A program made the translations under genes and the position numbers. Source: Pseudomonas izuensis (lineage in GTDB: Bacteria; Pseudomonadota; Gammaproteobacteria; Pseudomonadales; Pseudomonadaceae). Taken from it: DNA of 64,000 nucleotides. The DNA lies in NCBI RefSeq assembly GCF_009861505.1, contig NZ_WTFT01000006.1, forward strand, positions 62,001-126,000, given 5' to 3'. The notes under the pieces were generated by a model, which saw nothing but the letters and a program-made list of their open reading frames with translations, ran no database searches and had not been told where the DNA came from. This document shows positions 32,176 through 61,740 of this stretch, one piece after another (within the stretch, counting starts at the first letter, position 1; every line of letters begins with the position of its first letter).

Positions 32176-32207
32176 AGCAAAACAAAAGGCCCGGTCCGTC
32201 AGGCCTT
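32176..32207 (-). terminator. Intrinsic terminator after the MBL-fold gene
   Basis: On the minus strand AAGGCC and GGCCTT (32202-32207 and 32186-32191) form a stem overlapping the stop codon, followed by TTTTGTTTTGC. It ends the long catabolic transcript. Confidence 0.6.
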
Positions 32208-33105
32208 ATGCTTCCTGATGAATGAAGTGCCCAGCATGATCGTAGGAAACGTAACGTGATTGGCGGTTACGCATGACCCTCACTAGCGCATGCTGCGGAT
32301 CCCGGGGCAAGAACAGGCGCCCTCGGTTGGATACCAGATAATCCAGAATCCGTTCCTTTTCGCCAATCAGGCTTTCAGGATTACGGTCATACCCGCTGGT
32401 GACCGTCAGGTCGAGCCAATGGCTGGTGGGAATCAGGTCACCGGCAAACAGCATTGGCCCGCCTGGCATGGCGATCTCCGGCAACAATTGCCCGCGGGTA
32501 TAGCCATCGCTCAGGTGCAGATGCCATCCACTGCCGAGTTGGGGACTCGTGCCCTCCTCGACCAGTTCAAGGCGCCCGCCGAATTCCAGTTGGCGCAAAA
32601 TCCAGGGTATGAATCGGCTGCGTTCATGGGGATGTGGATGCAGGGCCCGCCGCCAATGCTCGGCACCTGTGAGGTAACGGGCACGAGGGAACAGCACGCG
32701 AAGCAGTTGGCCCGCGTCTATGACCCGGCATTGCTGCGGTGATGGGCTGGCATGCAAATGGGTAAGCAGGACCAGATCGATATCGTTTTCGCCCAGGCCA
32801 AGCCTGCCCAGACTGTTCAGAAGACCGCTCTGCCTGGGTTGCCAGTTGCAGGTGCGCGGCAGAGGCGCCAACAACAACTCACTCCCTGCCAGTACCAGAA
32901 TATTGCGGCCGGGTTCCTGGACCAGCAGAGCGCGGGACGGCAGTTCCACCAGGTGCTCATGATCGGGAGCCATCCACTGTTCCCAGATCCGGCGTGGTGT
33001 ACTGCCAAACAGCACACCTCCATCGAGCTTGCGCGGTGCGCCGTTGAGGCTGGTCAGTCGGCGCGGCACGGCGGGAGCGCGGTAGTAGCTGCAATTCAAT
33101 GACAA
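32206..33105 (-). CDS. Degenerate metallo-beta-lactamase-fold protein
   Basis: About 299 aa from TTG 33105 (AGGGGC upstream); the frame extends to 33147 inside the MFS gene. The MBL fold is recognisable: LVLLTHLHASPSPQQC where active members have HxHxDH, SDGYTRGQ where they have a GHTPGH-like loop, and FAGDLIPTSHW with the retained bridging Asp. The Asp and fourth His of the first motif are Ser and Pro, and the later His is Gln, so two-metal hydrolysis is unlikely. It ends the operon after the MFS gene, overlapping it slightly or starting right at its stop. A thioester or lactone-binding role is possible. Confidence 0.65.
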   Translation of the reverse strand: MSLNCSYYRAPAVPRRLTSLNGAPRKLDGGVLFGSTPRRIWEQWMAPDHEHLVELPSRALLVQEPGRNILVLAGSELLLAPLPRTCNWQPRQSGLLNSLGRLGLGENDIDLVLLTHLHASPSPQQCRVIDAGQLLRVLFPRARYLTGAEHWRRALHPHPHERSRFIPWILRQLEFGGRLELVEEGTSPQLGSGWHLHLSDGYTRGQLLPEIAMPGGPMLFAGDLIPTSHWLDLTVTSGYDRNPESLIGEKERILDYLVSNRGRLFLPRDPQHALVRVMRNRQSRYVSYDHAGHFIHQEA

Positions 33106-33115
33106 AACGAAGCCC

Positions 33116-34309
33116 CTATGAGTCTGCTGGCGACAGTGCCCCGCCAACGCGGATCAATCGCATCAGCCCACACACCAACACCACATTCAGCACCGCCAAT
33201 GAACAGACACCCACCCAAACACTGGCCACGCCAGACGTCTGCATGATGTAGCCGCCCACCAGCGGAGTCAGCGCCTGAACAATCAGGGACGGCCTGGCCA
33301 TCCGCCCCATCAGCAGAACATAGTGCCATGGCGACATAAGGGCCAACGGCAGCACGCCTCGAATGATTGCGCGCAAGCCATTGCCCGCACCAAAAATCAC
33401 CAGCCCCACGGCACTGGCCGCAGGTGCCAGCGCGACCAGCATCAGGCCCGCCGCTATCAGTACGGCAGAAATGAGCGTGATCCCTATGGGGTGGTGCTTT
33501 CGTGCAAAAACCTGGAGAAATCGTGACCCCACTTGACTGGGTCCCACCAGCGCACTCAATCCGACGGCGATGGCGAGGGAATACCCTTGCCCCTGCAACA
33601 GGGCAATCAGATGGACCGACATCACCGTCATGATCACCGCCCCCACCGCAAAGATGGTCGTGAGCAGCAGGTAAACACGCCCATCCACCGAAACTGCCTT
33701 TTCGTACGGTGCATTGCTTTTGGCGAGCACGCCCAATCCCCCCGGAAGCACCCACAGGTAGAGCGGCGCCACGGTGACCAGCAGCAAACAGCCATAGGCC
33801 AGGCAGGTACTGCGCCAGCCAAAATGTTCAATGGCAAGTGCAACCACTGGCCAGACAAGGGTGGTAGCGAACCCGGAGATCAGCGTGATACCGGTAATGG
33901 CACTCCCCGCCCGCTCGCCGTACAACCCGCCCGACGTCGCCAGGAGTGAATCGTACAGACCCAGGGCCATACCCACACCAATGACCGCCCAGGCGCACAG
34001 GAACAGGGGGAGCGATGTCGAACTTGCCATGATGAACAACCCGATCGCCATGAACAGACCACTGCTCGCCAGGACGATGCGACCGCCCCAGCGCGAGATA
34101 AGCCGACTGGTCAAAGGGGCCAGCACTGCACTGACCAGGATGCCAAGGGAGACGGCACCAAATACCCATGGGCTCGGCCAGCCGGTCTCTTTCATGATCG
34201 GATCGGCCATGACCGCCATCAGGAAGAAAGAGCCGCCCCAGGCCAGAATCTGCAGCCACCCCAATACAACAATGTCCAGAACACCAGGCAAACGAGAAGA
34301 GTCTTTCAA
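33116..34309 (-). CDS. MFS transporter
   Basis: 397 aa with twelve predicted membrane helices. The annotated start is TTG 34309; no ribosome site is clear, so the start may shift by a few codons. It has VLDIVVLGWLQILAWGGSFF as first helix and a loop-2-3 region LISRWGGRIVLASSGLF with MFS-type basic residues. Likely a carrier for the acid substrate or a product of the surrounding CoA pathway. The next gene (MBL-fold) begins at its 3' end. Confidence 0.75.
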   Translation of the reverse strand: MKDSSRLPGVLDIVVLGWLQILAWGGSFFLMAVMADPIMKETGWPSPWVFGAVSLGILVSAVLAPLTSRLISRWGGRIVLASSGLFMAIGLFIMASSTSLPLFLCAWAVIGVGMALGLYDSLLATSGGLYGERAGSAITGITLISGFATTLVWPVVALAIEHFGWRSTCLAYGCLLLVTVAPLYLWVLPGGLGVLAKSNAPYEKAVSVDGRVYLLLTTIFAVGAVIMTVMSVHLIALLQGQGYSLAIAVGLSALVGPSQVGSRFLQVFARKHHPIGITLISAVLIAAGLMLVALAPAASAVGLVIFGAGNGLRAIIRGVLPLALMSPWHYVLLMGRMARPSLIVQALTPLVGGYIMQTSGVASVWVGVCSLAVLNVVLVCGLMRLIRVGGALSPADS

Positions 34310-34366
34310 AGCACAGCCATCACTATGGAGTAAGTACGGATAATCGGCTTAAACGCATCTGCGCCA

Positions 34367-35476
34367 TCATGAACGCCATACAGCGGTTGGACCACGAGCC
34401 CCGAGCGCGTCCATGACTTCTGCGGTGTGTGCACCACAGTCGGGAATTTCGCCTGGGGTGACACGCTGGCCGTCAAAACGCGGTGCCGGACTGGCTTGCA
34501 GCATGCCATCGCGTTCGAAGTACACGCCCCGCTCCACCATGTGCCGGTGCTGCGAAGCTTCTCGCGGGCTCAATACCGGGGCGAAGCAGACATCGCTGCC
34601 TTCGAGCAGATCACACCAGTGCTGGCGTGGCTGACGGGCAAAAATGTCGGCCAGGAGTCCGCGCAGTTCTTCCCAGTGCTTGCGGTCCCACTGTCTGGCA
34701 AAACGCGGGTCATCCTGCAAACCCAGCTTGTGCATCAGCAAGGTGTAAAACTGCGGCTCCAGCGAACCCAGCGCCACGTACTGGTCGTCGGCACAACGAT
34801 AAGTGGCGTAGAAATGCGAGCCATCGTGCACACTTTTACCGCGCTCTTCGAATAGCAGCCCTCGACCGCCCAGGTACATCATCAACTGCATCATGTGCGC
34901 CGAGCCATCGACGATGGCCGCATCGACCACCGTGCCCTTGCCGGTCTGCCGGGCACTGAGGATACCCGCCAGCAAGCCGACGGCCAGGTACAGCGCCCCA
35001 CCGCCGATGTCACCGAGCAGGGTGATCGGCGACGACGGTGCTTCGCCGGCCGTGCCACTGTGGTAAAGCGCACCGGACAATGCAACGTAGTTGTTGTCAT
35101 GACCTGCCGCGTTGGCCAGCGGACCCTGCTGGCCCCAACCGGTCATGCGCCCGTAGACCAGCCGTGGATTGCGTGCCTGACATTCCTGCGGACCCAGGCC
35201 CAGGCGTTCCATGACCCCGGGACGCATGCCCTCGATCACGGCATCGGCGCTTTCGAGGAGTTGCAGTAGCGTCTCGCGCCCTTCGGGGCTTTTCAGGTCA
35301 ACCACGATCGAACGCTTGCCACGGTTGAGCGAGTTGGCCGGGGCATTGCCGTTGTTCGAAACGGAATCGGAGCGCTCCACCGCGATCACGTCCGCCCCCA
35401 GGTCGGCCAGGTGCATGGCGCAGAATGGCCCCGGGCCGATTCCGCAGATTTCTACGATCTTGATTCCTGACAGCAT
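34367..35476 (-). CDS. Family III CoA-transferase/alpha-methylacyl-CoA racemase-like enzyme
   Basis: 369 aa from ATG 35476 (GAGGAAAG upstream). CaiB/BaiF fold. The start SGIKIVEICGIGPGPFCAMH followed by LADLGADVIAVERSDS is typical of alpha-methylacyl-CoA racemase (AMACR); YGRMTGWGQQGPLANAAGHD carries the His/Asp-type active residues (GHDNNY). AMACR converts (2R)- to (2S)-2-methylacyl-CoA so that the S-specific acyl-CoA dehydrogenase can act. CoA-transferase activity cannot be excluded. Its neighbours (SCPx thiolases, MaoC hydratases, SDR) support the racemase reading. Confidence 0.75.
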   Translation of the reverse strand: MLSGIKIVEICGIGPGPFCAMHLADLGADVIAVERSDSVSNNGNAPANSLNRGKRSIVVDLKSPEGRETLLQLLESADAVIEGMRPGVMERLGLGPQECQARNPRLVYGRMTGWGQQGPLANAAGHDNNYVALSGALYHSGTAGEAPSSPITLLGDIGGGALYLAVGLLAGILSARQTGKGTVVDAAIVDGSAHMMQLMMYLGGRGLLFEERGKSVHDGSHFYATYRCADDQYVALGSLEPQFYTLLMHKLGLQDDPRFARQWDRKHWEELRGLLADIFARQPRQHWCDLLEGSDVCFAPVLSPREASQHRHMVERGVYFERDGMLQASPAPRFDGQRVTPGEIPDCGAHTAEVMDALGARGPTAVWRS

Positions 35477-35520
35477 GAAACTTTCCTCAATGAATCTCGT
35501 GGCCGTTGGGCACAGGCTTT

Positions 35521-35620
35521 TGTAGGCGCGAGCCTGCACGCGATGAACTCAAGAGCGCCGCGTTTAGCCAGTAAACACGCGTCATCGTTGACGACCATCG
35601 CGAGCGAGCTCGCTCCTACA
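35521..35620. repeat. REPIN-type inverted repeat
   Basis: TGTAGGCGCGAGCCTGCACG (35521 on) faces CATCGCGAGCGAGCTCGCTC ending CTACA at 35620. These are two Pseudomonas REP sequences in inverted orientation about 50 bp apart. It lies in the gap between the racemase-like gene and the first thiolase and may interrupt or stabilise the transcript. Confidence 0.8.
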
Positions 35621-35636
35621 GGGGGGGATCGCGTTA

Positions 35637-36827
35637 TCAGGCGCGACCGTACAGGGTCACGACGCAGGCGCCACCCAGGCCAAGGTTGTGCGCCAGCGCT
35701 ACATTGGCGCCTTCGACCTGACGCTTGTCCGCCGTGCCGCGCAGCTGGTGGGTCAGCTCGTAGCATTGCGCCAGGCCGGTCGCACCCAGCGGATGACCTT
35801 TGGACAGCAGGCCACCGGACGGGTTGGTGACAACCTGGCCGCCATAGGTGTTGTTGCCGTCGAGGACAAACCGCTCGGCGCCGCCGACATCGCACAGCCC
35901 AAGGGACTCGTAAGTCAGCAGTTCGTTGTGGGCGAAGCAGTCGTGCATCTCGGCAACGCGGATGTCCAGCGGGTCGACACCGGCCTTTTCATAGACTTCC
36001 CGGGCAGCCCGCTGGGCCATGTCGAAACCGACCACTTCGATCATCGAGCGGGTTTCGAAACACACGGGTTTGTCGGTGGTCAACGACTGGGCAAGGACCA
36101 CCACGTCGGTGCGCAGGCCATGTTTTTTGGCGAAAGCTTCCGAGCAGATGATCGCCGCCGCAGCACCGCAGGTCGGTGGGCAAGCCATCAGACGGGTCAT
36201 CACCCCCGGCCAGATCAGTTGGTCGTTCATGACGTCGTCAGTGCTGACCACTTTGCGGAACAACGCCAACGGGTTGTTGGCCGCATGCCGGCTGGCCTTG
36301 GCGCGAATGGCGGCAAAGGTCCTCATCTGGGTGCCGTACTTTTGCATGTGCTCGCGACCGGCACCGCCGAACAGGCGCAGGGCACTCGGCATATCGGCAA
36401 TGTCGCCGGTCAAGGCGTCGATCACGCCCTGGGTCTTGTGCGTGGTGGCCCGTGGACGGTCGTCCCAATGGCCTTTCAAGGCGCCAGGCTGCATCTGCTC
36501 GAAACCGAAAGCCAAGGCGCACTCGACCGCACCGCTTTCCACGGCCTGGCGCGCCAGGAACAATGCGCTGGAGCCAGTCGCACAGTTGTTGTTGACGTTG
36601 ACCACCGGAATGCCGCTCATACCGACTTCATAAAGTGCCGCTTGACCGCTGGTGGAATCGCCATAGACATAGCCGGCATAGGCTTGCTGAACCAGGCTGT
36701 AGTTGAGTCCGGCATCCTGCAACGCCAGGCGAATCGCTTCGCTGCCCATTTCGATGTAGGTACCGCTGGTGCCTGGCTTGACAAAAGGGATCATGCCGAC
36801 GCCGGCAACGTAAGGTTTTTGCGACAT
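35637..36827 (-). CDS. SCPx-type thiolase (lipid-transfer-protein family), copy 1
   Basis: 396 aa. Thiolase fold of the SCP2/Ltp class: nucleophile Cys in NNNCATGSSALFLARQ, the HDCFAHNELLTYE His, KGHPLGATGLAQCYE and the C-terminal Cys-containing HNLGLGGACVV. SCPx thiolases cleave 3-ketoacyl-CoAs carrying a 2-methyl branch or bulky ring, releasing propionyl- or acetyl-CoA. It resembles the thiolase at 44960-46144 throughout, so the pathway has two paralogous thiolases, probably for successive rounds. It lies 88 bp downstream of the DUF1329 gene in the same operon. Confidence 0.88.
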   Translation of the reverse strand: MSQKPYVAGVGMIPFVKPGTSGTYIEMGSEAIRLALQDAGLNYSLVQQAYAGYVYGDSTSGQAALYEVGMSGIPVVNVNNNCATGSSALFLARQAVESGAVECALAFGFEQMQPGALKGHWDDRPRATTHKTQGVIDALTGDIADMPSALRLFGGAGREHMQKYGTQMRTFAAIRAKASRHAANNPLALFRKVVSTDDVMNDQLIWPGVMTRLMACPPTCGAAAAIICSEAFAKKHGLRTDVVVLAQSLTTDKPVCFETRSMIEVVGFDMAQRAAREVYEKAGVDPLDIRVAEMHDCFAHNELLTYESLGLCDVGGAERFVLDGNNTYGGQVVTNPSGGLLSKGHPLGATGLAQCYELTHQLRGTADKRQVEGANVALAHNLGLGGACVVTLYGRA

Positions 36828-36915
36828 TGCTGCTCTCCAGATTCAATAAGCTAGAAGTTGCACAGGGATAGCCGTCCGCCCCCTTGCGAGGACGGATGGC
36901 GATTGCTCGGTTGAC

Positions 36916-38283
36916 TCAGCGGATACCGGCGTTGCGCAGGGCTGCCGGGGTGAAGTCATTCATGGTGGGCTGATAGGCGTAGTCAGTGCCGCGCTTGTTC
37001 TCGTTGCCCAGGTTCGACACCAGATAACGACCGGCCAGCAGGTCATAAATCCCCATCGCGGCGTAAACGGCAACGCCCTGCTGGTAATCGTTGACCAGAT
37101 AACCTTCGCTGACGCGCCACAGTTGACCGCGACCGTCGTACTGGTCGATTTCCACCGCCGCCCAGGTGTCCTCGTCGATGTACATATGGCGCTTGGCGTA
37201 GATGTGGCGCTGGCCCGGCTTGAGGGTGCCCTCCACTTCCCACACCCGATGCAGCTCATAGCGGGTCAGGTCCTGGTTGATGTGCCCCGGTTTGATGATG
37301 TCGGCGTACTTCAGCGTCGGCGATTGCAGCAGGTAGTTGTTGTAGGGAACGTAGACTTCCTTCTTGCCGATCAGCTTCCAGTCATAACGGTCCGGGGCAC
37401 CGTTGTACATGTCGGCGTTGTCAGCGACACGCATGCCGTCGGCGGCTGTGCCGGGGCCGTCGTAAGCCACTTGCGGCGCACGGCGTACGCGACGCTGGCC
37501 GGCGTTGTAGGCCCAGGCCATGCGCGGGTCCTTGATCTGGTCGAGGGTCTCGTGGATCAGCAACACGTTGCCGGCCATGCGCGCTGGCGCCGTCACCGTT
37601 TGTTTGGCGTAGAACAGGATGTTGGCGCTGTCCTCGGGTTTGACGTCCGCCATCTTCCACGGCAGTCCCGCCGCGGTCTCGATCTGCACGATGGTGTAGT
37701 CACCATTGGTTTGCGGCGTGGCCTGGGCCTGGCGGCTGATGAAGTTGGTGCCCCGTGAACGGGTCAGGTGGTTCCACACCACTTCCAGCCCGGTCTTGGG
37801 AATCGGGAAAGCGTAGTAACGCGACTGTTCGAAGTTTTTCAGCGAGTAGCCATCATTCGCCGACTCGGTGGTCAGCGCGCTTTTCTTCGCCGCGTCGTAG
37901 ACCGCCTGTGGCGCCGATGCCGTGCGCTGGGTCTTGAACACCGGGATTTTGTAGGTGTCGGGGTAGCGCTGGAACATCGCCAGTTGCCCGGCCGTCAGTT
38001 TGCTTTTGTACTGCGCAACATTGGCGGCCGTGATCACGAACTGCGGCTTTTCGCCCTCGAACGGATTGCCGAGAAAGTCATTGGTCACGGGCGCAGCGCC
38101 GGGTTTGAGGCCACCGGTCCAGGCCGGAATGCTGCCATCAGCATTGCCGGCCTTTTCGCCACCCAAGGGCGTCAGGCTGGTGCCCAGTTGAGCGGCCTCT
38201 TTTTCGGAAACGGCAGCCATGACGCCGGAAGCGATCAGGCTCAGTGACAACGCGCAGGCTTTAAACAGAGTGCTGGATTTCAT
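36916..38283 (-). CDS. DUF1329 LolB-like envelope protein
   Basis: 455 aa with a clear signal peptide (MKSSTLFKACALSLSLIASG then VMAAVS). The mature part shows the DUF1329 signature: aromatic strands (AVEIDQYDGRGQLWRVSEGY), QRRVRRAPQVAYDGP, MYNGAPDRYDWKLIGKKEVY. DUF1329 proteins have a LolB-like fold and are almost always paired with DUF1302 barrels in catabolic clusters for hydrophobic acids or esters. Here the DUF1302 gene is 25 bp upstream, so a periplasmic or outer-membrane relay for the substrate is likely. Confidence 0.88.
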   Translation of the reverse strand: MKSSTLFKACALSLSLIASGVMAAVSEKEAAQLGTSLTPLGGEKAGNADGSIPAWTGGLKPGAAPVTNDFLGNPFEGEKPQFVITAANVAQYKSKLTAGQLAMFQRYPDTYKIPVFKTQRTASAPQAVYDAAKKSALTTESANDGYSLKNFEQSRYYAFPIPKTGLEVVWNHLTRSRGTNFISRQAQATPQTNGDYTIVQIETAAGLPWKMADVKPEDSANILFYAKQTVTAPARMAGNVLLIHETLDQIKDPRMAWAYNAGQRRVRRAPQVAYDGPGTAADGMRVADNADMYNGAPDRYDWKLIGKKEVYVPYNNYLLQSPTLKYADIIKPGHINQDLTRYELHRVWEVEGTLKPGQRHIYAKRHMYIDEDTWAAVEIDQYDGRGQLWRVSEGYLVNDYQQGVAVYAAMGIYDLLAGRYLVSNLGNENKRGTDYAYQPTMNDFTPAALRNAGIR

Positions 38284-38308
38284 TGTTGTTTTCTCCGTTT
38301 GACAGGTG

Positions 38309-40129
38309 TCAGAAGTTCACGCCGAAGCTCAAGGCGACGTAATCGCGATCGGTGTTGGTGTTCCACTTTCCGCCGAAGTAGTCGGTGTAACTGAGGCTGG
38401 CGGTGTAAGTGTTCATGAAGTCGGCATCGACACCGAGGCTGACGGCCTTGTTGCCTTCCTCGAAGTTGGGACCTACGCCATCGACGTCGTGGGACCAGGC
38501 CAGGTTGGGCGACAGGTTGATGCCGGCGAATACGTTGGGGTAATCCAGCTTGCCGCGCAGGCGGTAGCCCCAGGAGTCCGTGGTATAGAAACCGTGGCTG
38601 TTGCATTCCTGCTGCGGGTTGCTCGGACGGGTTACGCCCGGCTGGCCCGGGACCGGCAGGTTCTGGCCAACACAGACGGCCTGATTGACCAGTTGCCCGG
38701 CACCGAACACGGTGTTGCGGCCAAAACGCACATCGGTGCCGTCGCTGGAGCCCAGGCCGTTGATGCGGTTGTAGCCCACCTCGCCCACCAGGGTCAGGCG
38801 GTCGGCACCGAGGATCTGATCGAAGAACCGGGTGGCACTCATTTGTGTCTGCAACACGGGCATGCGTTCGTAACCGCTAACGGGCGCTCCGGCGACATTG
38901 GACGAGTGCCCGCTGACGAACAGCGGTGAAGCTGCGTTGCCCGTGGCCGCCAGGTTGATGTCGGCACCGTTGAGGTTCAATGGCATGTTGGGCCGGAAAC
39001 TGACCTCGCCACCCAGCGATGTACCCATCACGTTGGTGGCGAAACTCAGGCCATACAGGCGGACATCTTCGGGATAGACCACGTTGTAACTGGCGGTGCG
39101 GATCGCGGCCACCGAGCTGGCGGTACTGGTCGCCCGGGTGAAATCCAGGCTTGGGTTGCGACTGTGGTAGTTCATGACATAGGCACCGAACTCGGTGTCG
39201 TTCAGCTCTGCCGCAAACCAGCGCAGCGCCAGCCCATACTGGCCACTGTCGCGGGCATCCTTGGTCTTGGTGCGCGGGATGAAGGCATCATCCGTCAGGC
39301 CAGGCGTCCCGGTGTTCTTGGCCACGCCCGGCGGCAGATCGAGGCCCGCCAGCACCACGCGGTCATTGCAGCCTTCAGGCGTCACGTCGTTGCCAAAGAA
39401 GGTGCCGCAGTTATCAATGACCGAAGGCGCCCATTCGAGCTGATAGAAACCCTCGACAGTGACGTTTTCCGACAAGCCCTGGGACATGTAGAACATGTTG
39501 ACCGGGATCAGGCCCTCCTTCACTTCGGCACCGGGCCGGCGCAGGGCCGCCACGTCGATCGGGTTGATGCTGTTGATCGAGTTGCCGATGAAGGTACTTT
39601 CACCCCAGCTCACCACCTGCTTGCCCAGTCGCACGTTGCCCTGCAAATCGTCGAGGGTGTAGTTGTGGTAGACAAAGCTGTCGAGGAACATCGCCCCGGA
39701 GGACTTGGCGGCGCGCTGACGGCCGTGGTCTTCGATGTCGTAGAACGGACGGCTTTCATCCATCAACTCGAAGTCGTACCAGTACTTGCCGCGCACGAAA
39801 GCGCCGCTGTCGCCGTACTTCAATTCCAGGTCGTGCACGCCCTTGAAGATCTTCGAGAAGGTCTCGCCCTTCTTGAAGTTCAGGCGGTTGTCATCGTTGG
39901 TACGGGACGAGGCTTCGCCCCTGACACCTTGCGAGTTGAAGTTGGAAATGAAATCCGGGTCCGGTCCACGGACGGCCCAACTGGCGCCTACCGACAGTGC
40001 CGAGTCGAAATTGCCCTCGATTTCGCCAATGCTGAATGTCTGGGCATTGGCCTGTGGATGGATGGCTGCGGCGATGGCGACGGCCAACAGGTGTGGGTAG
40101 CAGACTCTGCGCATTTTCTTGGTGCTCAT
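38309..40129 (-). CDS. DUF1302 outer-membrane beta-barrel protein
   Basis: 606 aa from ATG 40129 (GGAGAACGC upstream); the frame extends to 40174 without a ribosome site. Signal peptide CYPHLLAVAIAAAIHPQANA. The barrel has alternating aromatic strands throughout and ends YVALSFGVNF, the terminal-Phe outer-membrane insertion signal. DUF1302 members are FadL-functional analogues for long or cyclic hydrophobic substrates. It pairs with the DUF1329 protein directly downstream and follows the CoA ligase. Confidence 0.88.
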   Translation of the reverse strand: MSTKKMRRVCYPHLLAVAIAAAIHPQANAQTFSIGEIEGNFDSALSVGASWAVRGPDPDFISNFNSQGVRGEASSRTNDDNRLNFKKGETFSKIFKGVHDLELKYGDSGAFVRGKYWYDFELMDESRPFYDIEDHGRQRAAKSSGAMFLDSFVYHNYTLDDLQGNVRLGKQVVSWGESTFIGNSINSINPIDVAALRRPGAEVKEGLIPVNMFYMSQGLSENVTVEGFYQLEWAPSVIDNCGTFFGNDVTPEGCNDRVVLAGLDLPPGVAKNTGTPGLTDDAFIPRTKTKDARDSGQYGLALRWFAAELNDTEFGAYVMNYHSRNPSLDFTRATSTASSVAAIRTASYNVVYPEDVRLYGLSFATNVMGTSLGGEVSFRPNMPLNLNGADINLAATGNAASPLFVSGHSSNVAGAPVSGYERMPVLQTQMSATRFFDQILGADRLTLVGEVGYNRINGLGSSDGTDVRFGRNTVFGAGQLVNQAVCVGQNLPVPGQPGVTRPSNPQQECNSHGFYTTDSWGYRLRGKLDYPNVFAGINLSPNLAWSHDVDGVGPNFEEGNKAVSLGVDADFMNTYTASLSYTDYFGGKWNTNTDRDYVALSFGVNF

Positions 40130-40236
40130 GCGTTCTCCGTTTTTATTGGCATAAAGGTCCCAAGCCGCTCGCAAGCAAGCGGCGTGGTTCCTGGGGGGTG
40201 AAAGTGATGCGCGCGACCACGGGGATCACGCGGTGG

Positions 40237-41799
40237 TCAAGCGATTCCGCGCTGCTGGTTCTCCCAGAACGGTTTGCGCAGTTCGGTTTTCAACACCTTG
40301 CCGACGCTGGTCAGCGGCAGTGCCTCGCGGAACTCGATACTGCGCGGCACCTTGTAGCCGGCAATCCGTTCGCGGCAGTGGGCAATGAGGTCTTCGCTGG
40401 TGACGACAAGCCCAGGCTTGAGCACGATCACCGCGTGCACCGTCTCGCCCCACTTCGGACAAGGGATGCCGATCACCGCGCTTTGCGCGACCGCAGGATG
40501 GCTGGCGATGGCCGCCTCGACTTCACCGCAGTAGATGTTCTCGCCGCCGCTGACCACCATGTCCTTGAGGCGGTCGCAGACATAGATGAACCCGTCTTCA
40601 TCCATGTAGCCGCCGTCCCCGGTGTGCATCCAGCCGCCGCGCAAGGTGTGCGCGGTGACTTCGGGTTTCTTCCAGTAGCCGAGCATGACATTCGGGCCGC
40701 GCACGATGATTTCGCCCACGGTGCCGTGCGGCACGTCGTTGTCATCGGCATCGACGATGCGAACTTCCACACAGTTCACCGGCAGGCCGGCCGAGTACAT
40801 CTTGCCGTTGGCCTGGTATTCGGCGGTGTGATATTGCGCAGACAGGGTGGTGGCCACCGGGGACAGCTCGGTCATGCCGTAGCCCTGGGAGAAGCCGGCA
40901 CTAGTGAACACGGCCCGGGCCCGATCAAGCAGCGCCGGGGTGATCGACGAGGCGCCGTAACCGATGTATCGCAGGGAGCTGGCGTCGTGTGCCTGACCGT
41001 TCTTGTCATGCCAGTCCAGAATCATCTGGATCATGGTCGGGGCCAGCAGGATCTCGTTGATTTTTTCCTGCTCGATGGCATCCAGAACGTTCTGCGGTGT
41101 AAAGGACTGCACGATGACGTGGGTGCCACCGGTCAGGAACAACGCCGTGATCGCCGCGAAGTCGGCAAGGTGAAACATAGGCATGGCGTGCAGGAAGATC
41201 GCATCCGCCCCCAGCCGGCCCTGGGACAGCGCGTTCAAGGCCGAGAAGGTCACATTATTGTGGCTGAGCATGACCCCCTTGGGGTGGCCGGTGGTGCCGC
41301 CGGTGTAGAAGATCCCCAGCAAGGAGTCCCCTCCCCGGCGCACGTCTTCCACCGGTTCGCTGATCGCGATCAGCGACTCATAGCGCAGCATCCCGGGCGG
41401 AGTCTCGCCCTCCCCGGCGTAAATCACCAGGTTGACGGTCTTGGCTTGTTCCAGGACCCGAACACCCAGTTCCTTGTGGTGCTCATCAACGATCAGCACC
41501 GTGGTTTCCGATTCATCCAGCGAGTACAGGATCTCCGCCGCACTCCAGCGGAAATTCACCGGGTTGACCACCGCATCTGCCCACGGCACGGCCAGGTAAT
41601 ACTCAAGAAACAGTGGCGAATTCAATGCCAGCAACGCCACACGATCGCCGCTGGCAACGCCCAGGCCTTTCAGCGCACCGGCCAGCCGCGCAACACGATC
41701 GCCAAACTCGGCATAGCTGATGCTGCGCCCCTGATAGCGGATCGCAACGGCATTTGGACGTTGCTGCAGATGACGGTGCAGCCCTTGTGTGATGTACAT
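40237..41799 (-). CDS. Acyl-CoA ligase (AMP-forming)
   Basis: 520 aa. ANL-superfamily motifs in order: FYTGGTTGHPKGVMLSH (P-loop), the A5-type GYGMTELSPVATT, HTGDGGYMDEDGFIYVCDRL with the hinge, and the catalytic Lys in PLTSVGKVLKTELRKP. It activates the imported carboxylic acid to its acyl-CoA at ATP cost, the entry step of the pathway. It lies between the acyl-CoA dehydrogenase and the outer-membrane barrel in the minus-strand operon. Aryl-, cyclic- and medium-chain ligases share these motifs, so the acid is not defined by sequence alone. Confidence 0.88.
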   Translation of the reverse strand: MYITQGLHRHLQQRPNAVAIRYQGRSISYAEFGDRVARLAGALKGLGVASGDRVALLALNSPLFLEYYLAVPWADAVVNPVNFRWSAAEILYSLDESETTVLIVDEHHKELGVRVLEQAKTVNLVIYAGEGETPPGMLRYESLIAISEPVEDVRRGGDSLLGIFYTGGTTGHPKGVMLSHNNVTFSALNALSQGRLGADAIFLHAMPMFHLADFAAITALFLTGGTHVIVQSFTPQNVLDAIEQEKINEILLAPTMIQMILDWHDKNGQAHDASSLRYIGYGASSITPALLDRARAVFTSAGFSQGYGMTELSPVATTLSAQYHTAEYQANGKMYSAGLPVNCVEVRIVDADDNDVPHGTVGEIIVRGPNVMLGYWKKPEVTAHTLRGGWMHTGDGGYMDEDGFIYVCDRLKDMVVSGGENIYCGEVEAAIASHPAVAQSAVIGIPCPKWGETVHAVIVLKPGLVVTSEDLIAHCRERIAGYKVPRSIEFREALPLTSVGKVLKTELRKPFWENQQRGIA

Positions 41800-41896
41800 G
41801 AAAACTCCAAATTGCTTTTTTATTATTCAATTGATTTGGAACTGTCGGCCCCCGGAGTGAGCGCTCTGGAGGCCTGTGCAATTCAGGACGCTGCGG

Positions 41897-43039
41897 TCAG
41901 AGCGAGCGCGCAACGACCTCGCGCTGTATCTCGTTGGAACCGCCGTAGATACGCGCCACCCGTGCATCGGCCCACATCCGGCCGATCGGGTATTCGTTCA
42001 TGTAGCCGTAGCCACCGAACAGTTGCAGGCAGCGATCGAGTACTTCGCCCTGGCGCTCGGTCAGCCAGAACTTGCCCATCGACGCCAGGGTGGTGTCGAG
42101 AGTGCCGTCGATCCAGCGCTGGATGATCACGTCGATGAACGTCCGGGAGGCCAGCACGGTGGCCTTGACATCCGCCAGCACGAAACGGCTGTTCTGGAAA
42201 TCAATCACCGGTTTGCCGAACACGGTACGGTCCTTGGTGTAGTCCACAGTCAGGCGCAGGGCGCGCTCCATCACCGCAACGGCACCGACACCAATCTGGG
42301 CGCGTTCATAGGGCAGCTGGCTCATCAAGGTGTAGAAACCTCGACCTTCTACTTCACCAAGCAGACAATCCACCGGCACTTCGACGTCATCGAAGAACAT
42401 TTCCGATGTGTCCTGGGCGTGCATGCCGACTTTGCTCAGCAGATTGCCGCGGCGGAAACCCGGGGTATTGGTGTCGACCATGAACAGCGAGACACCCTTG
42501 GCGCCCTGGCTGGTATCGGTCTTGGCAATCACCAGCACCATGTCGCAGGTCTGGCCGTTGCTGATGAACGTCTTGGCGCCGTTGATGACGTACTTGTCAC
42601 CTTTGCGCACGGCACGGGTACGCACCGATTGCAGGTCGGAACCGGCACCGGGTTCGGTCATGGCGATCGCGCAGATCACTTCGCCCGAGGCGATTTTCGG
42701 TAGCCAGTGGAGCTTTTGCGCTTCAGTGCCCGAATCCAGAATGTAGTGCCCGACGATATGGCTCAGGCCGAGGCCCAGGCCACCGCCATTGGCGGCCATG
42801 GTTTGCACCACGCTGACGTAGTGGCCGATGTCGCCGCCGCTGCCGCCGTATTCTTCCGGTACGTCAGGGAGGATCAGGCCCAACTCGCCGGCCTTGAGCC
42901 AGGCAGAACGGTCGGCGAAATGCTGTTCGCGCCATTTCAGTTCGTTGGGCTCCATGTATTCCTTGGCAAAGCGCTTGACCATGTCACTGAACTGTTCCAG
43001 GTCTTCGGTCATCCAGGGAGAGCGGTAGTTTTCCAGCAT
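41897..43039 (-). CDS. Acyl-CoA dehydrogenase (LCAD-like)
   Basis: 380 aa from ATG 43039 (GAGGT about 10 nt upstream). Standard three-domain FAD enzyme: MTEPGAGSDLQSVRTRAVRK, then GAKTFISNGQTCDMV and FGGYGYMNEYPIGRMWADAR. The C-terminal motif is ARIYGGSNEIQREV, with Gly where MCAD-type enzymes have their base Glu. A Glu occurs instead in SQLPYERAQIG, the LCAD position, and LCAD enzymes accept 2-methyl branched acyl-CoAs. Electrons would go to the dedicated ETF encoded at 51393-53071. Confidence 0.88.
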   Translation of the reverse strand: MLENYRSPWMTEDLEQFSDMVKRFAKEYMEPNELKWREQHFADRSAWLKAGELGLILPDVPEEYGGSGGDIGHYVSVVQTMAANGGGLGLGLSHIVGHYILDSGTEAQKLHWLPKIASGEVICAIAMTEPGAGSDLQSVRTRAVRKGDKYVINGAKTFISNGQTCDMVLVIAKTDTSQGAKGVSLFMVDTNTPGFRRGNLLSKVGMHAQDTSEMFFDDVEVPVDCLLGEVEGRGFYTLMSQLPYERAQIGVGAVAVMERALRLTVDYTKDRTVFGKPVIDFQNSRFVLADVKATVLASRTFIDVIIQRWIDGTLDTTLASMGKFWLTERQGEVLDRCLQLFGGYGYMNEYPIGRMWADARVARIYGGSNEIQREVVARSL

Positions 43040-43138
43040 TGCAAATACCTCGGGTTCTGAAGCCTGCTGACCGTGGACGGCCAACAGGCTCGACTCATCG
43101 TTGCCCCTGCTGACAGGGGCATACATCGCGACAGGTGT

Positions 43139-43972
43139 TTAGAAGTTGGAGCCTGGACCGCCGCCGCAGTACAGGGTCTGGCCGGAGCAGAAGTTGGACT
43201 CCGGCAGGCAGAGCATGACCACCGCACCTGCCGCCTCTTCCGGCTTGCCAGGACGACCCAGCGCAATGGCGCGGCTGGCGCCGTCGATCATGGCCTGCTG
43301 GACACCGACCTTGATTTCGCGGCCTTCGATTTTCACGGTCTTGCTGTCTTCGCCTGCCAGCGCCTGGGTCAGGCGGGTTTCGATCAGGCCGAACGCGACG
43401 GCATTGACGTTGACTTTCATGCGGCCCCATTCCTTGGCCAACGTCTTGGTCAGGCCCAAAATGCCGGACTTGCCCGAGGAGTAGTTGGACTGGCCGACGT
43501 TACCGCCCGCCGCGCCAGAGGAGATGTTCACCACCTTGCGCAGGACTTCTCGGCCTTCGGCGGCCTCTTTTTTGGCCAGGGCGCTGATCACCGGCTGAGC
43601 GGCGCGCAGGATGCGGAACGGCGCGGTCAGGTGGCAGTCGATGATCGCGTACCACTGCTCGTCGCTCATCTTCTGGATCACGTTGTCCCAGGTGTAGCCG
43701 GCGTTGTTGACGATGATGTCGATCGAGCCGTAATTCTTGACGGCGGTCTGAATGAAACGATCGGCAAAGTCGGCGGCGGTGACGCTACCCACGCATGCCA
43801 CGGCTTCACCACCAGCGGCACGGATCTCGGCGACCACTTCTTCAGCCGGTTCGGCGTCCAGGTCGTTGACCACGATTTTGGCGCCGTAGGCGGCCAGTTG
43901 CAGGGCGACTTCACGACCAATGCCACGGCCAGAACCGGTGATCAGAGCAACTTTGCCTTCAAGCTTTTTCAT
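43139..43972 (-). CDS. Short-chain dehydrogenase (3-hydroxyacyl-CoA dehydrogenase, MFE-2 type)
   Basis: 277 aa from ATG 43972 (AGGAAC 7 nt upstream). Rossmann Gly motif TGSGRGIGREVALQLAAYGA, NNAG in IIVNNAGYTWDNVI, and the catalytic Ser/Tyr/Lys set (NISSGAAGG then Y-S-S-G-K). The N-terminus is most like the SDR half of peroxisomal multifunctional enzyme 2 (17-beta-HSD4), which oxidises (3R)-hydroxyacyl-CoA. The two adjacent MaoC genes supply the hydratase half of the same enzyme, consistent with a split MFE-2. Confidence 0.85.
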   Translation of the reverse strand: MKKLEGKVALITGSGRGIGREVALQLAAYGAKIVVNDLDAEPAEEVVAEIRAAGGEAVACVGSVTAADFADRFIQTAVKNYGSIDIIVNNAGYTWDNVIQKMSDEQWYAIIDCHLTAPFRILRAAQPVISALAKKEAAEGREVLRKVVNISSGAAGGNVGQSNYSSGKSGILGLTKTLAKEWGRMKVNVNAVAFGLIETRLTQALAGEDSKTVKIEGREIKVGVQQAMIDGASRAIALGRPGKPEEAAGAVVMLCLPESNFCSGQTLYCGGGPGSNF

Positions 43973-44003
43973 GCATTTTGTTCCTGTGAAAAGGGGTAAG
44001 GGT

Positions 44004-44438
44004 TCAGGCCAGGGCCACGACGGCTTCGCCGGCGAGCTTTTCTTCGCCGTACTGGTTCGAGCAACGAATCTGCAGGCGCACGTGTTTCTCGCCGTTCTCT
44101 TCGAACTTCTCGGTGATCGTGCCGGTGCAGGTCGGCACATGGCCCAACTGGGTGATGCCGGTGAAACGAATCGACAGGCTGCGCACTTGTTGTTGCGACA
44201 CCCATCCAGTCAGCAGGCGACCGAGGTAGGCGGCCGACAACATGCCGTGGGCAAACACATCGGACATGCGTGATTTACGCGCAAAGTCGATGTCGATATG
44301 GATCGGGTTGTGGTCGCCCGAAGCGCCAGCGTAAAGCGCGAGGGCCGTGCGGTTGACCGCCGGCAATTTCAGCAGCGGCACTTCATCGCCCACCTGGATA
44401 TCGGAGAACTGCACGCCGGTTTGGGTAGAGAGAGTCAT
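44004..44438 (-). CDS. MaoC-fold enoyl-CoA hydratase 2
   Basis: 144 aa from ATG 44438 (GAGGAA 9 nt upstream); a longer frame enters the neighbour. Hot-dog fold with the hydratase 2 catalytic motif YAGASGDHNPIHIDIDFA, the Asp and His activating water for (3R)-hydroxyacyl-CoA formation. It starts 11 nt after the stop of the second MaoC gene, so they should form a heteromer of the kind known for ChsH1-ChsH2 side-chain hydratases. Confidence 0.85.
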   Translation of the reverse strand: MTLSTQTGVQFSDIQVGDEVPLLKLPAVNRTALALYAGASGDHNPIHIDIDFARKSRMSDVFAHGMLSAAYLGRLLTGWVSQQQVRSLSIRFTGITQLGHVPTCTGTITEKFEENGEKHVRLQIRCSNQYGEEKLAGEAVVALA

Positions 44439-44448
44439 CGACTTTTCC

Positions 44449-44886
44449 TCAACGCTGAACGAGGGATGAACGGACATCGGCGATGTGCACGCCATCCTGG
44501 TTGGTCACCCGCGATTCGGTGACCACAAATTGCAGGGCACCGCCCTTTTTCTCGTAGACATCCGAGATGCGCGCATCGAACGTCAGCACGTCACCGGCGC
44601 AGGCCACGGCGTGGTAAATGAAGGATTGTTCGGCATGCAGGATGCGGCCGAGGTCAAAGTCCACCAGTTTCAGGAACGCACCCAGGTCGCGACCTTCGCT
44701 TTCCAGACACTTGAGAAACGTCGGCGGTACGGGCAGTGATGTGTAGCCCGCCTCGATTGCAGCCGCTTCATTGATGTACACCGGATCGGTTTCGCCGATG
44801 GCCTTGGCGAAGAAGCGCAGGCGGCCCTTCTCCACATCGACGCTGAACGATTCGAGCTTGTGCCCGATCAGACTTTTGTCTGTCAT
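44449..44886 (-). CDS. MaoC N-terminal-type (FAS1-like) hydratase subunit
   Basis: 145 aa. It opens IGHKLESFSVDVEKGRLRFF, then AKAIGETDPVYINEAAAIEA, the N-terminal hot-dog half typical of the MaoC_dehydrat_N class, which lacks the Asp/His motif of the partner. HAEQSFIYHAVACAGDVLTF completes the fold. It is tightly coupled to the catalytic MaoC gene downstream and follows the second thiolase by 73 bp, in the same operon. Confidence 0.82.
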   Translation of the reverse strand: MTDKSLIGHKLESFSVDVEKGRLRFFAKAIGETDPVYINEAAAIEAGYTSLPVPPTFLKCLESEGRDLGAFLKLVDFDLGRILHAEQSFIYHAVACAGDVLTFDARISDVYEKKGGALQFVVTESRVTNQDGVHIADVRSSLVQR

Positions 44887-44959
44887 TGGTCTCTTCCTCT
44901 TCTTGTTATGCGTGTTTTGCTGGTTGTGCGTGGCCTGGCGGACACGCCGTCTGATGCAC

Positions 44960-46144
44960 TCAATTGCACCCGTACATCGTCACCACGCAGGCACCACCCA
45001 GACCCAGGTTGTGCTGCAAGGCGATGTTCAGGCCTTCGACCTGGCGCTTGTCGGCCGTGCCGCGCAGCTGATGGGTCAGCTCGTAGCATTGGGCCAGGCC
45101 GGTAGCGCCCAATGGATGCCCTTTGGAAAGCAGGCCGCCAGAGGGGTTGGTCACTACCTGACCACCGAAGGTGTTGTCGCCATCGAGAACGAATTGCTCG
45201 CCGCCACCGACCCCGCACAGTCCAAGGCCTTCGTAGGTCAGCAATTCGTTGTGGGCGAAGCAGTCATGCAGCTCCACAGCGCGTATGTCCTGTGGGCCAA
45301 AACCCGATTGCTCGTAGACCGTTTGCGCAGCGCGCCGGGTCATGTGGAAACCGGCATAGGCAATCATTGACGGCGGATCGAATGACTCGACCGGGTCGGT
45401 CACCAGTGACTGTGCAAGGATCACCACGTCGCTGCGCAGGCCGTGCTTCCTGGCGAAAGCCGGGGAGCAGATAATCGCCGCCGCCGCACCACAAGTCGGC
45501 GGGCAAGCCATCAGGCGCGTCATCACGCCGGGCCAGAGCACCTGGTCGTTCATCACCTCTTCGGTGGTCAGGATGTTCTTGAACAGCGCCAACGGATTGT
45601 TCGAAGCATGACGGCTGGCCTTGGCGCGAATGGCGGCGAAGGTCTCCATGCGGGTGCCGTACGTTTGCATGTGTTCGCGACCGGCACCGCCGAAGGTTTT
45701 CAGGGCACGGGGAAGGTCGACATCACGGGTCAGGTCTTCCATAACATGGACCACGCTGGCCCGCGTCTGTGGACGGTCATCCCAGTGTGACTTGAGCGCA
45801 CCGGCCTGCATCTGCTCGAACCCCAGGGCCAGTACGCAATCGGCCTGGCCGCTCTGCACCGCAGCACGGGCCAGGTACAACGCCGTGGAGCCCGTGGAGC
45901 AGTTATTGTTGACGTTGATGATCGGGATGGCTGTGCGGCCCACTTCGTAAAGGGCGGTCTGGCCGCAAGTGGAATCGCCAAAGACATAGCCGGCAAACGC
46001 CATTTGCACTCTGTCGTAATCGATCCCGGCGTCCTTCAGGGCCAGGCGTACAGCCTCGGCGCCCATCCGGGTGTAGCTTGGGCTCTTGCCGGGTTTGGAG
46101 AAGGGAATCATGCCCACTCCGGCGACGACGACTTTTTCACTCAT
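44960..46144 (-). CDS. SCPx-type thiolase, copy 2
   Basis: 394 aa, first gene of the minus-strand catabolic operon. It carries NNNCSTGSTALYLARAAV (nucleophile Cys), HDCFAHNELLTYEG, KGHPLGATGLAQC and HNLGLGGACVV. It is alike along its length to copy 1 (35637-36827), down to long identical blocks such as KGHPLGATGLAQCYELTHQL, showing a duplication. The upstream region to 46568 is shared with a divergent thioesterase and holds three dyads. Confidence 0.88.
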   Translation of the reverse strand: MSEKVVVAGVGMIPFSKPGKSPSYTRMGAEAVRLALKDAGIDYDRVQMAFAGYVFGDSTCGQTALYEVGRTAIPIINVNNNCSTGSTALYLARAAVQSGQADCVLALGFEQMQAGALKSHWDDRPQTRASVVHVMEDLTRDVDLPRALKTFGGAGREHMQTYGTRMETFAAIRAKASRHASNNPLALFKNILTTEEVMNDQVLWPGVMTRLMACPPTCGAAAAIICSPAFARKHGLRSDVVILAQSLVTDPVESFDPPSMIAYAGFHMTRRAAQTVYEQSGFGPQDIRAVELHDCFAHNELLTYEGLGLCGVGGGEQFVLDGDNTFGGQVVTNPSGGLLSKGHPLGATGLAQCYELTHQLRGTADKRQVEGLNIALQHNLGLGGACVVTMYGCN

Positions 46145-46568: not shown

Positions 46569-47033
46569 ATGAGCGAATACAGAGCACCGTGGCCGACCGA
46601 AGGTGCCGGGGATGAACCGCCTGCCGGCTTCCTGCCCTTGGCGCGCGCAGGTTTCGTGACGCATTGCGCGGGCCTGTACTACCACGAGCACCGCCCGGTA
46701 ATAGCTGCCCGCATCCGACCGGAACACTTGAACCTGCTGGGCATTGCCCATGGCGGCTTCCTCGCCACCCTGGCCGACACGGCACTCGGATTGGTACTGA
46801 AAAAGGCCACGAACGCCGAGCTGACGCCGGCGACCATCAACCTGAGCATGGATTACCTGAGCCCGGCCCCGGTCGGTGCCTGGGTCGAGGCCCATGTCCA
46901 GGTGCACCGGCTGGGGCGCACGTTGTCTCACGCCAGTCTCGACCTGCTCCATGGCGAACGCCTGGTGGCGCGCAGCACCGCAACGTTCATCGGCAATACC
47001 GCCAGCCTTCACGGCAAGGGCCGCGAAGGCTGA
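46569..47033 (+). CDS. PaaI-like acyl-CoA thioesterase
   Basis: 154 aa, start backed by GAGGA about 5 nt upstream. Hot-dog thioesterase with the family motif GIAHGGFLATLADTALGLVL and the partner strand ATINLSMDYLSPAPVGAWVE. It probably frees CoA from dead-end acyl-CoA intermediates of the facing pathway. It is divergent from the operon and followed by a MalT-like regulator 160 bp downstream. Confidence 0.82.
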   Translation: MSEYRAPWPTEGAGDEPPAGFLPLARAGFVTHCAGLYYHEHRPVIAARIRPEHLNLLGIAHGGFLATLADTALGLVLKKATNAELTPATINLSMDYLSPAPVGAWVEAHVQVHRLGRTLSHASLDLLHGERLVARSTATFIGNTASLHGKGREG

Positions 47034-51392: not shown

Positions 51393-52322
51393 TCAGAGGG
51401 CTTGTTCCAGTTGCGGGACCGCCTCGAACAGATCCGCCACCAGACCGTAATCGGCCACCTGGAAGATCGGTGCCTCTTCGTCCTTGTTGATGGCGACAAT
51501 GATTTTCGAGTCCTTCATGCCCGCCAGATGCTGGATCGCGCCGCTGATACCCACGGCGATGTACAGCTGCGGCGCAACGATCTTGCCGGTCTGCCCGACC
51601 TGCAGATCGTTGGGCACGAAACCGGCATCGACCGCTGCGCGGGACGCCCCTACCCCGGCACCGAGCTTGTCGGCCAGGCGGTACAGGTGCTGGAAGTTGT
51701 CGCCGTTTTGCAGGCCGCGACCGCCGGAAACGACGATTTTGGCCGCCGTCAATTCAGGGCGATCGGACTTGGCCAATGTTTCGCTGATGAACAAGGACTG
51801 CCCGGCTTCGTGCACGGCAGACACCGCCACGACCGCTGCAGAGCCACCTTCGGCGGCAACGGCCTCGAAGCCGGTGGCCCGCACGGTAATGACTTTTACC
51901 GCCGCCGTCGATTGCACCGTGGCAATGGCGTTGCCTGCGTAGATCGGCCGCTTGAAGGTATCGGTCGACTCAACCGAGATGATCTCGGAGATCTGGTCCA
52001 CATCCAGTAGCGCGGCAACCCGGGGCAAGGTGTTTTTGCCGTTGGAAGTGGCCGGCGCCAGGATGTGGCTGTAAGCCCCGGCCAGCTCGACGATCAGCGG
52101 CGCGAGGTTTTCAGGCAGTTGGTGGGCATAGGCCGCATGATCAGCCAGCAACACCCTGGCAACGCCTTGAATGTTCGCCGCCGACTCGGCAACGGCACCT
52201 GCGTTGGCACCGGCCACCAAGAGGTCAACTTCGCCACCGATCTGCAAGGCAGCCGCCACGGTGTTCAGGGTTGCCGAAGCGATTGCCCCGGCGTCGTGCT
52301 CTGCAATAACCAGGATAGCCAT
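51393..52322 (-). CDS. etfA: Electron transfer flavoprotein alpha subunit
   Basis: 309 aa. N-terminal domain ([20 protein letters not shown]) and the C-terminal FAD domain with the signature [40 protein letters not shown] and [20 protein letters not shown]. It passes electrons from acyl-CoA dehydrogenases to ETF-quinone oxidoreductase. Its start overlaps the etfB stop by one base (TGATG). A second, general etf pair is expected elsewhere in a Pseudomonas genome, so this set seems dedicated to this pathway. Confidence 0.93.
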
Positions 52323-61552: not shown

Positions 61553-61740
61553 GGTGTTCTCCAAAACGATCAAATTGAGGCGATTCTGCCATTGAACGAT
61601 GCGTTGAGGGTTTTGAAGAATTGAGTTGTGGCGCCAGGAACCATCAGAAACGCCCGGAATTTGTGCGCAAGAGCCCTCGTAAATGACGTTAATCCGTCAA
61701 CTACACTGAGGCGACGCATGGCCGCACAGAGACTTCGAGC

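Follow-up and report, generated by a model that had tools for sequence, protein, structure and literature searches.

A candidate operon of Pseudomonas izuensis for the catabolism of hydrophobic acids with a 2-methyl-branched side chain

Gene content of the locus

The stretch of Pseudomonas izuensis DNA analysed here (64,000 nucleotides of contig NZ_WTFT01000006.1, referred to in its entirety as the window) contains a run of genes that probably forms a catabolic operon for hydrophobic acids, of steroid or terpenoid type, carrying a 2-methyl-branched side chain of isoprenoid kind from which propionyl-CoA would be released. These genes all lie on the minus strand and, in the order of transcription (46144 down to 34367), are predicted to encode a thiolase (thl1), a HadA-like protein, a MaoC protein, a short-chain dehydrogenase/reductase (SDR), an acyl-CoA dehydrogenase (ACAD), a CoA ligase, DUF1302 and DUF1329 proteins, a second thiolase (thl2) and a racemase (Table 1). 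No gap between thl1 and the racemase gene exceeds 160 bp, and a single transcription unit is therefore likely from the coordinates. After the racemase gene stand those of an MFS transporter and then an MBL-fold protein on the same strand. The right-hand continuation of the locus holds a thioesterase, two LuxR-MalT regulators, a second MFS transporter and EtfBA, followed by aconitase B.

An earlier reading of this sequence (the original prediction) had described positions 32206-46144 as a dispersed bacterial copy of the peroxisomal AMACR/MFE-2/SCPx pathway. Family assignment of the window proteins by Pfam and NCBIfam profile matches and by comparison with PDB sequences placed all of the genes it named on the minus strand of this interval and in the families proposed, with a reservation for the SDR. 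The enzyme run itself covers 34367-46144; the remainder (32206-34309) is occupied by the MBL-fold and MFS genes, which had not been listed. Likely start codons were located at 35476 (racemase), 43039 (ACAD), 43972 (SDR), 44438 (MaoC) and about 40129 (DUF1302).

Table 1. Predicted genes of the candidate operon and its flanks, with positions in the window
Feature	Position	Strand	Basis
mbl, MBL-fold protein, downstream neighbour	32206..33147	-	Pfam Lactamase_B, 33.2 bits
mfs1, MFS transporter	33116..34309	-	Pfam MFS_1
AMACR/MCR-type 2-methylacyl-CoA racemase (putative)	34367..35476	-	337 bits to MCR; active-site equivalents in 34/34
thl2, SCPx-type thiolase 2	35637..36827	-	413 bits to 6hsj; NCBIfam PRK08256, 659.7 bits (cut-off 436)
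DUF1329 protein, presumed periplasmic carrier	36916..38283	-	Pfam
DUF1302 protein, presumed outer-membrane channel	38309..40174 (likely start near 40129)	-	Pfam
Acyl-CoA ligase	40237..41799	-	Pfam AMP-binding, NCBIfam
LCAD-type acyl-CoA dehydrogenase (Glu in LPYER, Gly at the MCAD Glu site)	41897..43039	-	328 bits to 2pg0, 302 bits to 8w0t
SDR, candidate (3R)-hydroxyacyl-CoA dehydrogenase, FabG/MFE-2 type	43139..43972	-	Profiles, structure sequences, residues
MaoC subunit of hydratase 2	44004..44438	-	Pfam, structure sequences; catalytic Asp and His present
FAS1_DH/HadA-like partner subunit, degenerate half	44449..44886	-	Pfam FAS1_DH_region, 151 bits; lacks catalytic Asp
thl1, SCPx-type thiolase 1	44960..46144	-	NCBIfam PRK08256, 654.3 bits
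4HBT-fold acyl-CoA thioesterase	46569..47033	+	Pfam
LuxR-MalT regulator 1	47194..49944	+	Pfam; counterparts in relatives 73-79%
mfs2, MFS transporter	50001..51335	-	Pfam; 82-84% in G149, G150, G305
EtfA, electron transfer flavoprotein alpha	51393..52322	-	Pfam
EtfB, electron transfer flavoprotein beta	52322..53071	-	Resemblance of translation; position beside EtfA
LuxR-MalT regulator 2	53199..55880	+	Pfam

Enzyme families and catalytic residues

The closest structures to the putative racemase are those of MCR/AMACR (337 bits, against 127 bits for the best CoA-transferase structure). Equivalents of the MCR active-site residues H126, D156 and E241 are present in all 34 racemase homologues aligned; residue counts here and below come from alignments of homologues in fetched loci, window genes included. 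The protein falls in the Pfam family CoA_transf_3; seven NCBIfam models match it, six of them for CoA-transferases and one for an isomerase, and every score is far under the respective cut-off. Structure scores and residues support a racemase type rather than a CoA-transferase.

The SCP2-thiolase type 1 structure 6hsj is by far the nearest to thl2 (413 bits), the next best reaching 181 bits. Both thiolases possess the nucleophilic Cys and, among 95 homologues, this residue, the His and Cys of the HDCF motif and the His of GHP are found in 94, the remaining row being gapped. No C-terminal SCP2 domain was identified by Pfam on either window thiolase (394 and 396 aa), which gave thiolase-superfamily matches only. 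The ACAD resembles a bacterial ACAD (2pg0) and a mitochondrial long-chain ACAD (8w0t); the LCAD-type catalytic Glu of the G helix occurs in 65/65 ACADs and Gly replaces the MCAD Glu in 63/65.

HadAB-type hydratases are the closest solved relatives of the two hot-dog subunits. The MaoC subunit and its homologues all possess the catalytic Asp and His (73/73), whereas none of the 74 HadA-like partners has the catalytic Asp; the partner scored 26.9 bits against Pfam MFE-2_hydrat-2_N, slightly below the cut-off of 27. These counts support a hydratase 2 composed of one putatively active and one degenerate half. With these results the AMACR-like racemase, LCAD-like dehydrogenase, two-subunit hydratase 2 and pair of SCPx thiolases of the original prediction all held up.

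The SDR was described there as MFE-2-like. Its family is confirmed, with the catalytic Tyr in 91/92 and Lys in 92/92 homologues, and the case for an affinity to MFE-2 is weak: an MFE-2-type (3R)-hydroxyacyl-CoA dehydrogenase chain tops the list because its two domain matches add up, whereas per domain a FabG structure (154 bits) exceeds the MFE-2 domain (124 bits). The label is a guess from gene context. Taken as a unit, the thiolase-HadA-HadB-SDR core is, on its predicted functions, a split MFE-2/SCPx module and occurs four times in the genome.

Distribution and paralogous copies of the module

An SDR-based scan of named genomes gave 561 relatives, of which the best 80 loci, chosen by SDR similarity alone, were compared. 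The core order of thiolase, HadA-like, MaoC and SDR genes on one strand was found in 62 of these loci and spans Pseudomonas, Burkholderiales and Actinobacteria; the four loci that are actinobacterial by title (two Actinomadura, two Streptomyces) all keep it. Since this order recurs in 62 of 80 loci picked without regard to the neighbouring genes, the cluster is more than a chance arrangement. Partner genes were scored at 40% identity or more inside the fetched stretch of each locus, and the 62 core loci contain an ACAD in 42 cases, a ligase in 34, a racemase in 20 and all three in 12. The window ACAD is rare in the genus (4/149 genomes at E 1e-130), and the HadA-like subunit was identified at E 1e-25 in 23 of 398 genus genomes.

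The four HadA-like copies of P. izuensis are located on C56, C30, C55 and C45, and the C30 copy also has a racemase gene beside its core. The SDR copies are 62-83% identical among themselves and 91, 98.9, 98.5 and 92% identical to their best matches in fetched loci of other genomes. This looks like a set of ancient paralogues retained alongside one another and not like recent duplication, so the copies probably serve different substrates or different rounds of degradation.

Several relatives carry additional genes. Between EtfB and LuxR2, G149 and G305 encode a sulfatase, a pair of ACADs, an aldehyde dehydrogenase and a zinc alcohol dehydrogenase. Gene order is the same in G150, where gene calling left the Etf genes unresolved, and the G150 proteins were assigned by Pfam to the sulfatase (164 bits), alcohol dehydrogenase and aldehyde dehydrogenase families. 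The window is without this stretch, LuxR2 following directly after EtfB. Eight of 12 genomes searched have sulfatase matches of at least 78%; those of P. izuensis itself reach just 36-55%, one of them adjoining the C45 module copy.

A thiolase-like protein with Gly in place of the nucleophilic Cys and YDAF in place of HDCF, adjoined by a DUF35 protein, was identified in L021 (G015), L023 (G027) and L033 (P. schmalbachii, G153). This pair resembles a retro-aldolase step that would end side-chain degradation at the ring carbon; in G153 it is present and KshA and KstD matches are absent. In P. izuensis the single PF01796 match is on contig C18, not in the window locus. C18 contains another catabolic region (L180-L181) with a DUF35 protein, a thiolase-like gene, EtfA, a P450 and alcohol and aldehyde dehydrogenase-like genes. 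Its P450 and DUF35 genes were considered as parts of the cluster and set aside: they are ~17 kb apart among other catabolic genes, and no tie to the window cluster was seen.

Other observations concern relatives of the locus. The Cupriavidus oxalaticus plasmid NZ_CP038636.1 (mobilizable type) carries relatives of the racemase (67%), SCPx thiolase (74%) and ACAD (69%) in a stretch without annotation. A DUF2889 protein (L026:2071-2643) recurs, with matches in 22 fetched loci, some of them overlapping. An apparently exported protein of 570 aa (L026:18598-20307 and homologues), without a Pfam or NCBIfam match, is encoded between thl2 and the racemase gene in relatives.

Association with steroid-ring genes

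The original prediction had noted an absence of steroid-ring genes and drawn on it to argue for the substrate. For the window the absence stands: KshA, KstD, TesB and TesD queries taken from the same genome had no match there at E 1e-20 over 60% of query length. It does not hold for the genome, which has a predicted 9,10-seco-type ring cluster on another contig, C29. This cluster includes KshA (266.9 bits; 0/14 control genomes match), a KstD-like protein that in NCBIfam matches 3-ketosteroid-delta-1-dehydrogenase best (602 bits, under the cut-off of 789), an HsaC-like extradiol dioxygenase (312 bits, under 450), an HsaD-like hydrolase (189 bits, under 400) and a 2-oxopent-4-enoate hydratase-like enzyme (390 bits, under 409). 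Scores above the NCBIfam cut-offs were obtained for an acetaldehyde dehydrogenase and for a 4-hydroxy-2-oxovalerate aldolase, and a DUF1302/DUF1329 pair is present as well. The putative KshB is nearest PaaE, under cut-off, and NCBIfam gave no match at E 1e-40 for a putative IpdB-like gene.

Across the 398 genus genomes KshA was found in 17 of the 23 that carry the module and in 50 of the 375 others (odds ratio 18.4, Fisher p 4.9e-10, kinship ignored). Of 12 genomes that have a relative of the SDR or ACAD of the cluster, 8 gave a TesB match at E below 1e-97, a count not independent of the former because some genomes sit in both sets. With a ring cluster in the genome and a correlation between ring genes and module across the genus, the argument from missing ring genes falls.

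The single-contig genome G305 contains an orthologous locus in the same order. The scored genes from the racemase to thl1 are 80-94% identical to those of the window (HadA-like 87%; MaoC not scored), and the identities in the flanks are 62% (MBL), 79% (LuxR1), 82% (MFS2) and 81% (EtfA). G305 also has an exported protein between the racemase and thl2 and additional genes between thl1 and LuxR1.

Comparison with known side-chain pathways

The animal AMACR/MFE-2/SCPx route oxidises the side chains of bile acid and pristanic acid. It shares with the window the kinds of racemase, hydratase 2, hydroxyacyl dehydrogenase and SCPx thiolase, but in the window three separate genes share the functions of MFE-2, an LCAD-type dehydrogenase takes the place of acyl-CoA oxidase, the thiolases were not found to possess the SCP2 domain of animal SCPx, and the SDR is nearer to FabG per domain than to the MFE-2 dehydrogenase. 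LCAD in animals is a mitochondrial enzyme, and the window set is for this reason not the exact peroxisomal copy that had been proposed. Loss of the human AMACR, MFE-2 or SCPx functions causes disease, and the window offers separate bacterial counterparts of them for enzymology.

In nematodes, ACOX-1, MAOC-1, DHS-28 and DAF-22 act on ascaroside side chains with a separate hydratase, dehydrogenase and thiolase, as in the window; the available excerpt of the source does not mention a racemase (PMC12292910). The bile-acid route of Pseudomonas Chol1 and Comamonas (StdA1, Scd1AB, Shy, Sal, Sad) shares a CoA ligase, an ACAD, a MaoC hydratase and an enzyme of SCPx fold. There, as excerpted, the C5 chain is cleaved by the aldolase Sal, which is without a nucleophilic Cys, whereas the window encodes true thiolases; a table in the review lists thiolase and hydroxyacyl dehydrogenase as absent in both organisms at the C5-chain stage (PMC8399759; PMC12329534). 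Enzymes of the Sal/Shy type are recognised by an SCPx fold without the nucleophilic Cys, paired with DUF35, and neither window thiolase is of this kind, both having the Cys. By its residues the module differs from the aldolase route that Proteobacteria are known to use on bile acids.

The actinobacterial cholesterol pathway (Cyp125, Hsd4A, FadA5, ChsH1-ChsH2, Ltp2) shares a first-round thiolysis that yields propionyl-CoA, but FadA5 is, in the text available, a trifunctional-enzyme-like thiolase and not an SCPx (PMC6678751). The chain is activated in that pathway by Cyp125, and P. izuensis has one P450 match. The available parts of two papers assign 9,10-seco degradation of sterols with alkyl side chains to Actinobacteria and not, on present evidence, to Proteobacteria (PMC4810484, PMC6678751), one of them stating that there is no evidence for proteobacterial cholesterol catabolism by this pathway (PMC4810484); anaerobic Proteobacteria are described as degrading cholesterol by a 2,3-seco route (PMC6678751). 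The statement on Actinobacteria becomes directly testable through a reiterated, thiolase-based module that includes a racemase and is statistically associated with ring genes in Pseudomonas.

No description of this operon was found among the open papers listed, as judged from titles and the beginnings of abstracts. Among the matches listed, no title dealt with this operon for DUF1302, DUF1329 and thiolase together, no title or abstract start did so for SCP-x, racemase, MaoC and Pseudomonas, and no paper contained the racemase term for AMACR with side-chain degradation, Pseudomonas, thiolase and MaoC. A proteome paper on Alcanivorax (pristane/isoprenoids) did not mention a racemase, and the term cyprinol sulfate was found, among the matches listed, only in the bile acid review. 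Two candidate precedents were discarded. For juvabione, no paper on bacterial degradation appeared by title among the matches listed. Plasmid pREC1 of the pristane-grown Rhodococcus erythropolis PR4 encodes an ACAD of 53% identity, but its CoA-transferase matches at 27% and lacks GHDxNY and GDxGxG, and both of its thiolases read NEAF, not HDCF. The need for a racemase has also been described for a rubber-degrading bacterium, reportedly a Gordonia. In that organism the enzyme was required for isoprenoid use, according to a study cited in the available part of PMC8538451.

Proposed pathway and substrate

Protein families, catalytic residues, gene order and distribution are observed; all of the reactions are inferred, from family and residues, and so are the role in import and the nature of the substrate. 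The substrate would enter through the DUF1302/DUF1329 proteins and be activated by the CoA ligase, after which the AMACR-type racemase may invert the 2-methyl centre. The LCAD-type ACAD, together with EtfAB, would then dehydrogenate the acyl-CoA, the two-subunit hydratase 2 would carry out an (R)-type hydration and the SDR would oxidise the (R)-hydroxyacyl intermediate, and thiolysis by the SCPx thiolase would release propionyl-CoA, or acetyl-CoA in unbranched rounds. The enzyme families, the racemase type and the SCPx, LCAD and hydratase 2 features make a 2-methyl-branched substrate, as in the original prediction, reasonable. The racemase carries most of the weight, since the remaining set also removes two-carbon units in nematodes.

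The cluster is well conserved and enzymatically coherent, and its substrate lies between steroid-type and other terpenoid side chains. In an organism that also bears a ring cluster, the substrate is likely to be a side chain of steroid type or else a similar terpenoid acid. Several observations weigh against a 2-methyl-branched, steroid-linked role. Nematodes remove two-carbon units with the same kinds of enzymes (available text of PMC12292910), and a racemase stands within the fetched stretch in just 20 of the 62 core loci. KshA matches are missing from six of the 23 genomes with the module: G073 and G131, where KstD-like matches reach 36-39%, and G089, G123, G222 and G305, where there are none, in G305 at a KstD threshold of E 1e-60. 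TesB had no match at E 1e-40 in G113, G152 and G154, and one of 37% in G153. The side-chain pathway therefore does not need steroid-ring genes, and because G305 combines an orthologous locus with no KshA or KstD match, steroid is not the sole possible substrate and a steroid-only reading was rejected. Strains without ring genes either use only the side chain or have a substrate other than a steroid.

A route that is not for steroids at all is a real possibility, somewhat short of an even chance. The substrate would then be an acid of isoprenoid or cyclic terpenoid type, or a product derived from a sulfated alcohol, and a general lifestyle on hydrophobic compounds would account for the link to ring genes. 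The G305 locus agrees with this, as do the sulfatase, zinc alcohol dehydrogenase, aldehyde dehydrogenase and paired ACADs at the G149, G150 and G305 loci and the case of P. schmalbachii, which contributes four of the best 80 SDR loci, has five racemase and seven sulfatase matches and gives no match to KshA or KstD. The strong association with KshA in the genus and the ring cluster in the P. izuensis genome itself speak against it.

It is quite improbable that the core removes acetyl-CoA from unbranched side chains in the manner of MAOC-1, DHS-28 and DAF-22, with the racemase serving another step. The nematode precedent (PMC12292910, in the part available) and the 42 of 62 core loci without a racemase in the fetched stretch are in its favour, but the window racemase gene is 160 bp from thl2 on the same strand and a racemase gene accompanies the core in the C30 copy too. 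That the family III protein is a CoA-transferase activating the substrate is very improbable: its Pfam family and its sub-threshold NCBIfam matches would fit, but the structure scores, the invariant MCR residues and the CoA ligase already encoded in the operon all oppose it.

The preferred reading of a branched-side-chain operon allows one tentative extension, which we consider rather unlikely. This Pseudomonas group may use steroids with C27-type branched side chains (sterol-derived acids, or 27-sulfated bile alcohols as excreted by fish) through the split MFE-2/SCPx module, which would feed a 9,10-seco ring pathway; some relatives would start with the sulfatase, alcohol dehydrogenase and aldehyde dehydrogenase of the same locus.

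Flanking genes and the neighbouring low-GC stretch

The canonical HxHxDH motif was not seen in the MBL-fold protein, which reads THLHAS. Of five homologues, three read THLHAF or THVHAH, and the search pattern matched nothing in the other two. A 4HBT gene stands beside thl1 in locus L026 as well.

A low-GC stretch adjoins the cluster at positions 1-31900 of the window and in L006 from about 14000, with values of 0.45-0.54 in 4-kb bins and ~0.61 on both sides. It apparently extends over ~80 kb (C56 near 14 kb to 94 kb, with 60001-62000 outside the reading) and contains genes resembling defence effectors, of the TIR-domain, TPR-S and SLATT kinds. At its far edge (L006:14509-17517) a Mu-transposase C-terminal gene and a TniQ match under cut-off were identified, with an ATPase-like gene between them (by eye), and the stretch is perhaps of Tn7/Tn5053-like origin. 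Beyond it a second racemase gene (L006:6066-7181; product 86% identical to that of the window) adjoins ACAD, ECH and TetR genes that, by eye, resemble those following LuxR2 in G305. From the position of these genes beyond the low-GC stretch, the locus looks rearranged in this genome.

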